NCBI GenBank assembly: GCA_014380365.1
Contig: JACMJZ010000031.1
Span: 62,001-126,000 of the forward strand
Direction: 5' to 3'
DNA: 64,000 nt
Source of the DNA: Pyrinomonadaceae bacterium
GTDB taxonomy: Bacteria; Acidobacteriota; Blastocatellia; Pyrinomonadales; Pyrinomonadaceae
Made by a program: the position numbers and the translations under genes. The notes beneath the pieces are model-generated. The model ran no database searches and was not told the DNA's origin. It saw only the letters and a list, made by a program, of their open reading frames with translations. Position 1 is the stretch's first letter. Every line of letters starts with the position of its first letter. Shown here piece after piece: positions 15,832 through 60,664 of this stretch.

Positions 15832-15896
15832 CATCGAGGGAACGCTCAACACCGGAAGCTCGCATTGAGCAAAGCTGGTTTGACTGGTTGCAAAAA

Positions 15897-15922
15897 GGGA
15901 CAGGCAGGAATGCCCGTCCCAC
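15897..15922. repeat. Short palindromic dispersed repeat gggacaggcaggaatgcccgtcccac
   Basis: Imperfect palindrome; a related 26-bp copy lies in ygfZ at 56329-56354. Confidence 0.6.
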
Positions 15923-32859: not shown

Positions 32860-32909
32860 GTGGCACGCGCATCTTGCGCGTGATTTCACGGGCGGGACTC
32901 CCGTGCCAC
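32860..32909. repeat. 50-bp palindromic REP-like element, family E (gtggcac...cacgggcgggaNtcccgtgccac)
   Basis: Related 51-bp copy at 56556-56606. Confidence 0.88.
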
Positions 32910-33383
32910 GATTGCGACGACTAGGCCCGTCAGTACAAATGTCACCAGAGCAGATAACAGGCAAAACTGGCAGAAGGCCCTGATCACAAAAGCCTGAAGA
33001 TAAACAAGCCAGAGACTGGTGACGAACATCAGGGCCACCGCCAGGGTCAGTAACTTGCCGGCGACTCTGTACCCAAAAGCCCCGAGTGTGGCCAAACTGA
33101 AAACCGTGAAATAGGCGGCGGCGCCTACCAGTGCGAGGGGGATACCGGCGACCGTTGCATACTGGCTACTCAGCACTTCAGAGCATCCCGACACGATCGT
33201 GCACTTAACGCTGCGACCGGCGACGTGCTCGACAGTCAGGTAGATCGCATCGGCCAGGCCCACCAGAGAAACCACGGATGCCGCCGCATAAAGAAGTGTA
33301 GGCCGAGAGGTATTCGATTCAGTTTGTAAGTCGGGTGTGACTGCCACGGCGAGTAGAGTTGTCCATATCCTTGGGGCGTCCAT
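32886..33383 (-). CDS. Vitamin K epoxide reductase (VKOR) family protein
   Basis: GLADAIYLTVEH, VSGCSEVLSSQYATVAGIPLALVGAAAY, FCQFCLLSA; start uncertain (33383 or GTG ~33348; ORF opens at 33449). Confidence 0.88.
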   Translation of the reverse strand: MDAPRIWTTLLAVAVTPDLQTESNTSRPTLLYAAASVVSLVGLADAIYLTVEHVAGRSVKCTIVSGCSEVLSSQYATVAGIPLALVGAAAYFTVFSLATLGAFGYRVAGKLLTLAVALMFVTSLWLVYLQAFVIRAFCQFCLLSALVTFVLTGLVVAIVARESRP

Positions 33384-35705: not shown

Positions 35706-35756
35706 ATCGTTTTGCTTTCATACTAAGACATCGCTGCCCATTGTGTCGCCACAAGC

Positions 35757-35845
35757 AGAAGCCCGACCGTTAGGGAGGGCTCTACGGAACCGCAACGCGG
35801 ATGCTTCAGAAGCTTAAAAAAGCCCTCCCTAACGGTCGGGCTTCT
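35757..35845. repeat. Inverted repeat, family G (agaagcccgaccgttagggagggct), 25-bp perfect arms
   Basis: Arms 35757-35781 and 35821-35845; second copy at 60530-60664. Confidence 0.95.
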
Positions 35846-37145
35846 TCTCGGACTCACCGAATACTCGTTCAAAGATCACGCCGACATTTCTTAGATAAGT
35901 GTCGAGTTGAAACACGGCATCAATCTCAGCGGCAGACAGATGGGAGTTAATGTCAGCATCGCTTCTCAGCAACTCCTGAAAGTTTTCGTTCCCATCCCAC
36001 ACCCGCATTGCGTTTCTTTGCACCGATTCATAAGCGGTTTCGCGCGAAACGCCTTTTTGCGTAAGCGCGAGAAGCAGTTGGCCGCTGAAGACGAGGCCCC
36101 TGGTCGCTTGCAGGTTCTGAAGCATACGCTCGGCATGGACGACCAATCCGGCAATCAACGACGTCGCCTTATGCAGCATGTAATCCAGGGCAACACTCGA
36201 ATCAGGCAGGACTACGCGTTCAGCCGAAGAGTGTGAGATGTCTCGCTCGTGCCAGAGCGCGACATTCTCAAGTCCAACCAAACTGTTGGCCCTGACGATG
36301 CGCGCCATGCCGCAGATGCGTTCTGAAATTATCGGATTACGCTTGTGCGGCATCGCGCTCGAACCCTTCTGGCCGACAGTAAAGCGTTCCTGAGCTTCGC
36401 CAACTTCGGTTCGCTGCCAGTGGCGAACATTGAGGGCAAACTTATCAAGCGAGGAGGCGATAATGGCCAGCGTACTCAAAAACTCGGCATAGCTGTCACG
36501 CTGAATAATCTGCGTGGAGACGGGCGCGTACCTGAGACCCAGGCGCTCGCAAACTCTCTCCTCAACCACCGGATCGAGCAGTGCGAAAGCGCCCACGGCG
36601 CCGCTGATCTTCCCCACCGCCACCGCCTGGCGCGCGCGCTTCAGACGTTTGCGGTTGCGACGCATTTCGTCGTACCAGAGGGCGAAGGTGAGTCCGAAGG
36701 AAGTAGGCTCAGCGTGGATCCCGTGGGTGCGGCCAATCTGAGGAGTGTCCTTAAACTCAAACGCACGACGCTGCAACACCTCCATTAACGCATCGACTTT
36801 CGCGAGCAGAAGATCGCAGGCATCTCCCAAGAGCAGGGCGTTAGCAGTGTCAACCACATCTGAAGACGTCAGACCGTAATGAACAAAGCGCGAGGCCTCG
36901 CCAATGTTTTCCGCGAGGTTGGTGGTAAAGGCGATGACGTCGTGGTTGGTAGTCTTTTCAATCTCACTGATACGCGCGACTGAAAACTTCGCGCGCACTT
37001 TGATTTGTTCGAGCGCATCGCCGGGAATGGTTCCCATCTCCGCGTGGACTTCGCAGACAGCAATCTCCACGTCCAGCCACTTCTGGAATCTGCTCTGTTC
37101 GCTCCAGAGCGCGCCCATCTCAGGCAATGTGTATCGTTCGATCAT
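35829..37145 (-). CDS. purB: Adenylosuccinate lyase
   Basis: GSSAMPHKRNPIISERICGMAR signature; C-terminus KKPDR* encoded by repeat arm. Confidence 0.97.
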   Translation of the reverse strand: MIERYTLPEMGALWSEQSRFQKWLDVEIAVCEVHAEMGTIPGDALEQIKVRAKFSVARISEIEKTTNHDVIAFTTNLAENIGEASRFVHYGLTSSDVVDTANALLLGDACDLLLAKVDALMEVLQRRAFEFKDTPQIGRTHGIHAEPTSFGLTFALWYDEMRRNRKRLKRARQAVAVGKISGAVGAFALLDPVVEERVCERLGLRYAPVSTQIIQRDSYAEFLSTLAIIASSLDKFALNVRHWQRTEVGEAQERFTVGQKGSSAMPHKRNPIISERICGMARIVRANSLVGLENVALWHERDISHSSAERVVLPDSSVALDYMLHKATSLIAGLVVHAERMLQNLQATRGLVFSGQLLLALTQKGVSRETAYESVQRNAMRVWDGNENFQELLRSDADINSHLSAAEIDAVFQLDTYLRNVGVIFERVFGESEKKPDR

Positions 37146-55983: not shown

Positions 55984-57168
55984 ATGGCTGAAGCAGTGGA
56001 ACAAATCGTCAATCGGAAGTCGCCACTCTGCGACAGGCATGCGCGACTCGGCGGGATAATGATCGAGCGCGATGGCTGGCAGGTCCCGTCATCCTACGGC
56101 GATGTGTTACTCGAATATGCCGCAGTGCGCGAAGGCAGCGCAGGTCTCATCGATCTCTCCCCGCGCGGTCGAATCCTGGTTAGCGGCACTGAAGCTATTC
56201 AGTTTCTCAACGGTCTCATCACGAATGACATGAAGACGCTCGAAGTTAACACCTGGATGCCGGCGGCGTTTCCCAATGTGCAGGGGCGTTTGATAGCGAG
56301 CGTGCGGGTAGTCCGCTTGCAAGACGAAGGGACAGGCAAGAATGTCTTTCCTACGTTCTTACTCGATACCGAGGCTGCCACGCATCAGAGCGTGTTGAAA
56401 ACCATCGAACGATTTACTCTCGCGGGCGACTTTCGTGTAACTGACATAACCAACCAAACGGCGCTCATTTCAGTGCAGGGAAGAAAGGCGGCCAGCGTCG
56501 TTCGGGCCGTTCTCGGTGATGCGGCGAGCGAGCTAGACGGAAACGCAGCCCGCCAGTGGCACGTGCATGCTGCGCGTGATGATCACGGGCGGGACGCCCG
56601 TGCCACGTCGGAATATGGTGAGCTGACTGCGATCAATGCGTCGCATGCTGGGGAGGACAGGTTTGATCTAATCGTCAATTCGAATCATGCTGCTGGCATG
56701 TGGGCCGCGTTGCAAGATGCAGGCGCGCGACCTGTTGGTTATGAAGCGCTTGAAATATTGAGAATCGAAGGCGGCCAGCCGCGCTACGGCGTGGATATGG
56801 ATGAATTCAACGTGGTAACTGAGGCTCTGGACGACGCAGTTAGTTATACGAAAGGCTGTTACATCGGGCAGGAGATCATCGCGCGCATCAGGTATCGCGG
56901 GCATGTGGCGAAGAAGCTAACGGGAATTGTCTTCCCGCAAGCGGCGAAAGTCGAAGCGGGCGCGGTCATTAAGTCGGCGGATGATAAGGAGATCGGACGG
57001 GTTACTTCCGCCGTCTATTCACCACATCTGGGCCGCAGAGTGGCGTTGGCCTATTTGAAATACGACTACCTGGCGCCGGAGACCAGCGTCATAGTCACGT
57101 CTGGCGATGAAAAAGTTCCGGGCAAGGTCGCGGAGCTTCCGTTTGTGAAAGGGAGTCCGGGGCAGTAG
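55984..57168 (+). CDS. ygfZ: YgfZ/GcvT-family folate-binding protein
   Basis: KGCYIGQEIIARIRYRGHV signature (K-G-C-Y-x-G-Q-E). Confidence 0.93.
   Translation: MAEAVEQIVNRKSPLCDRHARLGGIMIERDGWQVPSSYGDVLLEYAAVREGSAGLIDLSPRGRILVSGTEAIQFLNGLITNDMKTLEVNTWMPAAFPNVQGRLIASVRVVRLQDEGTGKNVFPTFLLDTEAATHQSVLKTIERFTLAGDFRVTDITNQTALISVQGRKAASVVRAVLGDAASELDGNAARQWHVHAARDDHGRDARATSEYGELTAINASHAGEDRFDLIVNSNHAAGMWAALQDAGARPVGYEALEILRIEGGQPRYGVDMDEFNVVTEALDDAVSYTKGCYIGQEIIARIRYRGHVAKKLTGIVFPQAAKVEAGAVIKSADDKEIGRVTSAVYSPHLGRRVALAYLKYDYLAPETSVIVTSGDEKVPGKVAELPFVKGSPGQ
56329..56354. repeat. Short palindromic repeat copy gggacaggcaagaatgtctttcctac inside ygfZ
   Basis: 21/26 identical to 15897-15922; encodes EGTGKNVFPT. 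Confidence 0.6.
56556..56606. repeat. 51-bp family E element in-frame inside ygfZ
   Basis: gtggcacgtgcatgctgcgcgtgatgatcacgggcgggacgcccgtgccac; encodes WHVHAARDDHGRDARAT. Confidence 0.92.
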
Positions 57169-57215: not shown

Positions 57216-57500
57216 GTGGCTGAAGAAACTAACAACCGAATCCCCGCGGACCTCGACTACGAACAGGCCCGACTCGCCTATTCGATCATCGAATCACTGC
57301 TCGAACATACGAAAGTCATTAGCGACCTGATCGCAGTGATGGCGCAGACGCTTGATGAGGACACCACCAAAGCGCTCACCCAAACACCCGTCTGGACCGC
57401 ATATCTCGACAGCCGCCGCCGCATGGAAGGCACCCGCAAAGACGTTGAGAAATTTGCTGAGTCTATGAAGAAGCTCGGAGGCGACGAATCGGTCGCCTGA
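57216..57500 (+). CDS. Small hypothetical protein, ~95 aa
   Basis: ORF immediately downstream of ygfZ; GTG start proposed at 57216. Confidence 0.65.
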   Translation: MAEETNNRIPADLDYEQARLAYSIIESLLEHTKVISDLIAVMAQTLDEDTTKALTQTPVWTAYLDSRRRMEGTRKDVEKFAESMKKLGGDESVA

Positions 57501-57513
57501 GTTATAGCAAGCC
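57423..57513. repeat. Direct repeat copy 1 (3' end of the small hypothetical gene)
   Basis: Matches 59373-59463, with small indels. Confidence 0.85.
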
Positions 57514-57559: not shown

Positions 57560-59338
57560 TCAGCCGCCACTGGCGGTGATGCGTCCAATCTCAGCAAGAG
57601 CCAAAGGGTATTCGATAAAGTCTTTGTTACCATTCTCCCTAACCCAGTGAAGATGCCGCAGAGCCTCCTCGCGAATGCCGCTCAACGATAGATCCAAACC
57701 AATGTAAGCATGTGCCTCGGTGAGCTTGTCATTGTCTGTCGCCAGCGCGAGAAGTTCCGGTGCAGTGATCTGGCGCTGTAGGTAACGGATCACCGGATAC
57801 GGCCATTCGGAAGCGGTTAGCTTCGTGGCGGCTTCGGCAAGGACATTGCTTGCCGGGGTGGCCTGTTTTGATTGTCTGAGGCCGAAATGTAGCGCCAGAG
57901 CCATATACGGCGAGTGGTCATCGTGCCACCCTTGCAGCCTCAGATACATGCGGGCGTCGGAGCCGGCGAAAGTCCCGCGAGCCAGACGCAGGTACACGTA
58001 GCTGCGACTTCGGTAGAGATATGGATTCCTGGGGTCGAGGCGGGTGGCCTGCTTGAAGGATGCAACGGCATCCTCATCTCTTCCCAGGTTGAGGTAGGCG
58101 TACCCGAGATCGGAATAAGACTGAGCCACCTCGGGTTTCAGTTGGATCGCCTGCTGGTACGACGTGATCGCCTCCTCGTAACGCTCTTCCCGACTTAGAA
58201 CGTGGGCGTAATGAAGGTGGCCAAGGTAGTTACGCGAGTCGCTGGCGATGGCAGACTCCAGGAGCTTCCTGGCCTCCGGTAACCTGTTCTGGCCCAGGCG
58301 CAGAATGCCTAACGAGATCTGGCTCATGGTGAAATTAGCATCAAGTTCGCGAGACTTTTTAAGGTAAACTTCAGCTTCGTCAAATCGCCTTCCGCGCAAG
58401 AGCAGATCTCCAAGGTAGTACTGCACCTCAGCTTCCGGCATCGGAATCCTCGCTGTATCTTTCGCGAAATCAAGTTGCTTGGGGAAGGTGATACTCAGGC
58501 TCGGGAAAGGTAACTTAGTCAAATAAGAACGTAATTCACGCTCAATGGTCTTGTAGTCAGCCTGAAACGATTGGCGAAAATTCTCCTCCACGGGAATGCC
58601 CGCGCTCAGACCGTCGATAAACTTCATGAGTTGAGGTTGTCTCTTACCTCCATTGTGAAGCATCAGAAATTGGACAAGTGCCCAGGATTGGGCGTAGAAA
58701 ATCCCTGCCTTGCCACTTTCATTGTAGTGGGGCGACTTGCGATTGACCTTAAACAACGTATCCAAAGGCAGGAATCTGCCTTCCCTCAACGTGAAGATGT
58801 GGCGGGGAATAGGGGCGCCGATCGACGCCTTTCGGCCATCATCTGAGGTCGTGAAGGTGCTGAAATACTCGGCCAGTCCTTCATCCAGCCAGGGAGGCGC
58901 GTTGGGCAGGTTGTTGCGGGTGACGAAGTGCTCGTATTCGTGAAAGATCACCTGATGCGGATCAATACCGCCGAGCTCAGAGGTCAGCGCGATATAGTTG
59001 CCGTCAGCAAAGGCCAGGAAGTAGCCCCCGACGTTTTCTCTCGTCTTGCCCTTGTACTGAGGCTTGAAGGGCTTAAACGAGGCGTGGCTCTTGAAGAGGA
59101 AGACGGTGGTGGGGACAGGCGTCTCGATCCGCGCCTTCGGAAAGAGGAGCGAGAGCACATGGCGGAATTCCTCGAGCTTGGTGGCCAGTTTCCGGATGTC
59201 ACGTTCGCCACCATTGCCGATGACGGTGAAGTTCTTTGATTTCACCTTTATCCAGTTCTCTTTAGCTGAGGAGGAGGACGCCGGAAGCAGCAGCAGGAAA
59301 GCGATGACAGCAAGTTTGGTGGCAAAGGTTCGTTTCAT
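57560..59338 (-). CDS. Secreted TPR protein with peptidase-MA-like (HEYEH) domain
   Basis: VIFHEYEHFVTRNNLPNAPPWLDEGLAEYFSTF; signal peptide; TPRs. Confidence 0.85.
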   Translation of the reverse strand: MKRTFATKLAVIAFLLLLPASSSSAKENWIKVKSKNFTVIGNGGERDIRKLATKLEEFRHVLSLLFPKARIETPVPTTVFLFKSHASFKPFKPQYKGKTRENVGGYFLAFADGNYIALTSELGGIDPHQVIFHEYEHFVTRNNLPNAPPWLDEGLAEYFSTFTTSDDGRKASIGAPIPRHIFTLREGRFLPLDTLFKVNRKSPHYNESGKAGIFYAQSWALVQFLMLHNGGKRQPQLMKFIDGLSAGIPVEENFRQSFQADYKTIERELRSYLTKLPFPSLSITFPKQLDFAKDTARIPMPEAEVQYYLGDLLLRGRRFDEAEVYLKKSRELDANFTMSQISLGILRLGQNRLPEARKLLESAIASDSRNYLGHLHYAHVLSREERYEEAITSYQQAIQLKPEVAQSYSDLGYAYLNLGRDEDAVASFKQATRLDPRNPYLYRSRSYVYLRLARGTFAGSDARMYLRLQGWHDDHSPYMALALHFGLRQSKQATPASNVLAEAATKLTASEWPYPVIRYLQRQITAPELLALATDNDKLTEAHAYIGLDLSLSGIREEALRHLHWVRENGNKDFIEYPLALAEIGRITASGG

Positions 59339-59372: not shown

Positions 59373-59463
59373 AATGGAAGCCACCCGCAAAGAGTTGAGA
59401 ATTTTGCTGAGCCTATGAAGAAGCTCTCAAGCGTCGATCAGTCGCCTGAGTTATAGCAAGCCG
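59373..59463. repeat. Direct repeat copy 2, degenerate remnant of the small hypothetical gene's 3' end
   Basis: atggaagccacccgcaaagagttgagaattttgctgagcctatgaagaagctc...gtcgcctgagttatagcaagcc. Confidence 0.85.
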
Positions 59464-60529: not shown

Positions 60530-60664
60530 GCACCAAGCAGAAGCCCGCGCGTAAGCAAGGGCTCTCGGTTTTTAACATTACGGCCCTAGTTCAACTAATC
60601 TCTCTATCGCTCTGGTTCTACCTGGGTCGGATCCCTTGCTTCCGCGCGGGCTTCTGCTTGGCGC
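60530..60664. repeat. Inverted repeat, family G second copy (caccaagcagaagcccgcgcgtaagcaagggct)
   Basis: Arms 60530-60563 and 60631-60664. Confidence 0.92.

Follow-up and report, generated by a model that had tools for sequence, protein, structure and literature searches.

The ygfZ-like gene at positions 55984-57168 (plus strand) of the window, i.e. the whole 64,000-nt stretch of Pyrinomonadaceae DNA analysed here, carries two in-frame repeat insertions that come from two different REP families. The best explanation, to which we assign a probability of about 0.88, is that two independent RAYT-type REP insertions occurred in this gene, both in frame, and that they were kept because they are harmless. 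Two such insertions had been proposed in the original prediction, and that proposal is borne out by the copy numbers of the elements in the genome (95 and 69, with 0 for the controls) and by the in-frame gains relative to orthologues.

We propose the following course of events. At one beta-hairpin, a family A REP would have been inserted at the tip before four sister species diverged, or possibly at a still earlier time; the tip of another beta-hairpin would later have received a family B REPIN, in the lineage of the source genome only. The mover would be a RAYT, a Y1 single-strand transposase acting on small non-autonomous palindromes; for family B, it would be a RAYT that is lost, missing or unassembled, or foreign. 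The YgfZ protein presumably stays functional with 9 + 15 extra residues. The inserts would have survived since their net lengths are multiples of three, there is no stop codon in the frame used and the turns were already variable in length.

The host gene and its product

The source of the window is the 4.98-Mb draft genome (G000) of a soil-dwelling member of the Acidobacteriota, made of 34 contigs and 95% complete; three named relatives with related loci are Pyrinomonadaceae and Acidobacteria MAGs. The ORF is open throughout its 394 codons and encodes a protein of 394 residues with Pfam matches to GCV_T and GCV_T_C and a score of 69.7 bits against TIGR03317 (CAF17_like_YgfZ; cut-off 49). Foldseek matched the product to the T-protein 1wos, to the YgfZ structures 1vly and 1nrk, and also to 6qe3. 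The KGCYIGQE signature of the YgfZ family, said from the start to have escaped disruption, is indeed intact downstream of the inserts (residues 290-297; 56851-56874, plus strand). The protein has both the KGCYxGQE motif and the match to the family model that characterize YgfZ/CAF17 members, and it may be predicted to function, as in that family, in folate-dependent Fe-S protein maintenance.

The other GcvT-like matches in the same genome are just 27-31% identical, and hence no spare close copy of ygfZ was found. The codon-position identity between the window gene and its G006 orthologue is 0.79, 0.84 and 0.48 at positions 1, 2 and 3, respectively, and the window protein deviates at four of 104 conserved columns, compared with zero to nine in family relatives. 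To judge from these sequence comparisons, the gene is under constraint. That ygfZ would instead be a decaying pseudogene freely collecting insertions appears highly improbable. The departures from nearly invariant residues at sites 222 and 226 would fit such a decay, but the 394-codon frame is open, both inserts are in frame and the signature is intact; moreover, the deviation count and the branch length resemble those of the relatives, and the genome harbours no close second copy.

Class of the inserted elements

The two inserts belong to different families of the same class of elements, the GT(A/G)G-tagged REPs. The repeats had been described as unrelated, which holds for the families but not for the class. 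Both family A (GTAG) and the B1 type of family B (GTGG) are imperfect palindromes of 20-40 bp with GT(A/G)G at one end, as in the GTRG superfamily. Pattern searches gave 95 dispersed copies for A and 69 for B, and in the stretches around 162 copies examined, a minority of the copies fall inside long ORFs; the elements are thus mostly extragenic. In both families the recurring unit consists of two inverted REPs and corresponds to a REPIN: 65 of 92 family A copies form inverted doublets, with GTAG outermost, and 58 of 70 family B copies in the genome have an inverted partner.

The elements share with the Rickettsia palindromic elements (RPE; Ogata and co-workers, via PMC3733652) the property of being palindromes read in frame inside proteins. 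However, RPE carry a CGTC end tag and have no link to a transposase, whereas the ygfZ elements are GTRG-tagged (GTAG and GTGG) and family A has its own RAYT. They are therefore not RPE.

Site 1 and REP family A

Site 1 is occupied by a single family A REP on the minus strand (56330-56354). It reads 5'-GTAGGAAAGACATTCTTGCCTGTCC and encodes residues 116-124 (GTGKNVFPT); it is a lone REP, not a doublet. The consensus of the family is GTAGGACAGRCATTCYTGYCTGTCC, i.e. a GTAG tag and a palindrome. A 26-nt string had been reported here (56329-56354). It occurs once in the window, with 0 occurrences expected by chance, and it does contain a repeat, but the REP proper measures 25 nt and the net insertion 27 nt. 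Family A has 95 copies with at most one mismatch to the consensus in G000, where the reversed-pattern control gave 0. Copies are also found in G004 (121), G006 (49) and G012 (14), with none in the 31 other family members searched and one among 23 more distant members of the class.

A RAYT gene lies between inverted copies of the family A REP. It codes for a 225-residue protein (C5:504044-504268; L095, on contig 5) that scores 80 bits against NCBIfam REP_Tyr_transpos, for a cut-off of 80 bits, and it has two family A copies per side, with doublets flanking both ends. The RAYT of G004, which is 71% identical to it, is likewise located amid family A REPs, and a RAYT remnant of 67 residues in G006 (L265, C81:9499-9618) adjoins a family A REP. 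The G006 transposase thus seems degraded while 49 family A REPs persist in that genome. The window harbours a second, diverged family A copy at 15895-15922, which ends in CCCAC, i.e. with a GTGG tag in place of GTAG.

Site 2 and REP family B

Site 2 (56556-56606) is occupied by a family B REPIN made of two inverted GTGG-tagged REPs and a 5-nt spacer. It encodes residues 192-208 (WHVHAARDDHGRDARAT). Its left half, of type B2, is identical to GTGGCACGCGCATCTTGCGCGTG at 20 of 23 positions (56556-56578, plus strand), and its right half, of type B1, is a perfect GTGGCACGGGCGTCCCGCCCGTG on the minus strand (56584-56606). The family core, CACGGGCGGGACGCCCGTGCCAC, has 69 copies in G000 within two mismatches, with 0 for the reversed-pattern control. 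The commonest doublet comprises B1 (GTGGCACGGGCGTCCCGCCCGTG) and an inverted B2 (CACGCGCAAGATGCGCGTGCCAC); in most cases 3 nt separate the two, for a total of 49 nt. The 5-nt spacer of the ygfZ copy, found in only two other copies, makes its length divisible by three. The earlier description of a 51-bp repeat of 17 codons is exact for this element; nevertheless, the usual length in the family is 49 nt, and the net gain in the gene is 15 codons.

The distribution of family B is patchy. Exact B1 copies number 29 in G000, 59 in the distant genome G088 and 54 in G311, which belongs to another family, and most of 396 genomes of the phylum have few or none. This abundance in distant genomes together with absence from most of those in between points to horizontal spread or to losses on several occasions. 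In G000 (95% complete), we found no RAYT for family B, and its seven Y1 matches all lack family B copies on their flanks. The nearest candidate is a 154-residue Y1 protein in G088, with family B ~0.8 kb away. Unlike for family A, a RAYT gene between inverted copies of the same REP was thus not found.

Orthologues and relative ages of the insertions

At site 1, the gene has gained a net nine codons (27 nt) over the insert-free genes of G002 and G010; at site 2, its net gain over the relatives amounts to 15 codons (45 nt). Both gains keep the frame. The first gain corresponds to the REP plus two nucleotides and the second to the element minus six. The insertion joints are therefore not clean, and later small indels or a change of the target must be assumed.

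The site 1 insert is found at the same codon in G000, G004, G006 and G012. It is common to the loci L061-L064, being the same in L062 and L063 and diverged in L064, and in the tree the carriers of a recognisable site 1 REP group together as a single clade (support 0.98). Since several intergenic family A sites are also common to G000, G004 and G006, inheritance explains this distribution more simply than re-insertion does. Among the orthologues, the site 2 element is present in G000 only. The two insertions are thus independent and of different ages, that at site 1 being old and that at site 2 later. An assembly or binning artefact has next to no likelihood. As an incomplete draft of 34 contigs, the genome might raise that concern; nevertheless, site 1 is occupied at the same codon in three other genomes that were assembled independently, and site 2 lies deep within a 350-kb contig with the reading frame kept.

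At site 1, the orthologues of G001, G007 and G013 contain 27 nt of degenerate sequence with partial similarity to the REP but without its stem, and their genomes contain no family A. This tract may be a relict of the insert, which would then have been lost in G002 and G010, or it may be an unrelated extension of the same turn. The site 1 form of G012 has a single occurrence in its genome, at ygfZ, and so has that of G013. We could thus rule out that the forms of G012 or of G001, G007 and G013 represent a separate REP family; for the same reason, we regard the G012 form as a diverged copy.

The G004 and G006 genes have a perfect 25/25 family A consensus at site 1, even though, where the amino acid is shared, the third codon position is identical in only about half of the cases. 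Selection might therefore have maintained the hairpin as an mRNA element acting in translation pausing or transcript stability, beyond mere tolerance. In the G012 copy, four changed bases of the stem (eight core pairs) keep pairing, with one G-C to C-G replacement and two G-U pairs, and for each of the four carriers, the hairpin folds better than shuffled sequences (z -2.4 to -4.5). More broadly, an intragenic REP could stay close to the consensus either because the REPs elsewhere in the genome keep it there or because its mRNA hairpin is conserved. The pattern under that reading would be a perfect copy in ygfZ where the family is numerous (G004 and G006), a compensated copy where it has dwindled (G012) and a melted one where it is absent (G001, G007 and G013). 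We regard both the maintained mRNA element and this broader version as unlikely. The compensation amounts to four changes in a single lineage, the same pattern arises from template switching at palindromes, and complementary changes are known in REP stems elsewhere (PMC2817692). Furthermore, the G000 stem has one broken pair (C-U) and forms the weakest hairpin of the four, and the stem is lost in the G001, G007 and G013 tract.

Position of the inserts in the protein

We compared AlphaFold models of the window protein (pLDDT 84.5) and of the insert-free G002 protein. In the former, strands 103-115 and 122-129 are joined by a turn that contains insert 1 (residues 116-124), and strands 188-192 and 214-217 by a loop of low confidence that contains insert 2 (residues 192-208). 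In the G002 model, each of these places is a tight turn of two residues (112/115 and 185/188). Each insert is thus predicted to form the tip of a beta-hairpin. The window protein resembles E. coli YgfZ, human IBA57 and GcvT in its two-domain fold (1vly, 1nrk, 6qe3 and 1wos) and its KGCYIGQE motif, but it differs from the solved T-proteins by two extended beta-hairpin tips, at places where gaps open in the sequence alignment with those proteins.

Alignment with orthologues and structures is in agreement with the loop positions initially suggested, with both inserts in loops and neither aligning to conserved core residues. Insertion into core residues was ruled out, as neither insert contains an invariant or near-invariant column. 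The length of the turns also varies among orthologues in which no REP is recognisable there, namely in L168 at site 1 and in L062 and L064 at site 2. Since both turns change length in relatives without any REP, tolerance is sufficient as an explanation.

Other intragenic REPs and the role of the ygfZ loops

The genes of G000 with an intragenic REP number about three for family A and about 12 for family B, as determined from ORF context and Pfam/NCBIfam matches, not from a full annotation; codon bias alone misses the allantoinase gene described below. Family A is present in frame in the allantoinase gene (TIGR03178, 568 bits; L014 1525-3021, minus strand; also L229 and L193); G000 has two REPs there, and G004 and G006 have three each at this site. 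In the G006 gene, an in-frame TGA precedes the REP array. Family B is found inside ORFs with Pfam domains of EPSP synthase (aroA), peptidylarginine deiminase, molybdopterin oxidoreductase and glycosyltransferases, as well as in those of a Rieske dioxygenase, an FGE-like (formylglycine-enzyme-like) protein, a porin, a TPR protein, an OppC-type permease and others (L036, L051, L154, L161, L144, L147, L164, L129 and L141). Another family B copy is present in the window itself (32886-32910; L132), in an ORF of 340 codons and upstream of its AhpC-TSA/thioredoxin-like domain.

With about three genes for A, 12 for B and ~4200 genes in all, the latter an estimate, 0.009-0.013 genes with both families are expected by chance. 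The co-occurrence is therefore mildly unlikely by chance, but it is at most suggestive as ygfZ was chosen post hoc. It could be taken to indicate that ygfZ is an active insertion hot spot, where the local sequence, transcription or single-stranded DNA would draw REP transposition. We consider this quite improbable. The gene was selected for carrying two elements, and the insertions differ in age, are ~200 bp apart and affect different turns. In addition, family B is present in about a dozen genes besides ygfZ, and family A arrays are found in the allantoinase gene; in the other ygfZ genes read, outside the site 1 lineage, no REP was seen at either place.

The idea that the loops of this protein are special repeat acceptors, as put forward in the original prediction, finds no support in that form, for similar reasons: the families are also present in other genes, the insertions are of different ages and the turns vary without REPs. 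What the data support is tolerance alone, in line with our preferred reading of two independent, harmless insertions.

Relation to known systems

The presence of REPs within genes, including two in one gene, has already been published (PMC3733652). That study described intragenic GTAG and CGTC REPs, as singles and dimers, with two in the same gene in O. terrae uvrA and Rickettsia conorii uvrB, and a GTGG tag variant in GTAG-20 of O. terrae; its authors argued that insertion into varied, unrelated proteins speaks against functional constraint. The elements reported here are similar in being GTRG-tagged palindromes of 20-40 bp found as singles or doublets in conserved genes, sometimes twice per gene. 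They differ by the phylum and the gene, by the presence of two different families in one gene and by the availability of the order of events and of a model of the insert-free state; these last three aspects are what is added here. A literature search yielded nothing relevant on such repeats in Pyrinomonadaceae.

As in the RAYT/REP system and REPINs (PMC2817692, PMC3116915), a RAYT gene lies between inverted REPs headed by GT(A/G)G and the doublet is the recurring unit. In contrast, family B has no RAYT found in its host, and it is mostly a fixed B1/B2 heterodimer with a 3-nt spacer.

In ygfZ, a conserved gene that has no close second copy in the genome, the conversion of non-coding mobile repeats into protein sequence can be dated and mapped onto a structure. 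The gene combines one old insertion, for which sister species and an insert-free relative are available, with one young insertion of a second family. With about a dozen other genes of this genome, Pyrinomonadaceae are a workable group in which to study how REPs become loops of proteins and whether the hairpins serve a purpose or are simply tolerated.

Two other repeats were observed in the window. A 70-bp stretch, comprising the end of a small ORF and TCGCCTGAGTTATAGCAAGCC, is duplicated on either side of the TPR gene at 57560-59338 (57444-57513 and 59394-59462). Finally, a third family of palindromic repeats (AGAAGCCC...GGGCT) is present as inverted pairs at 35752-35848 and 60530-60664.
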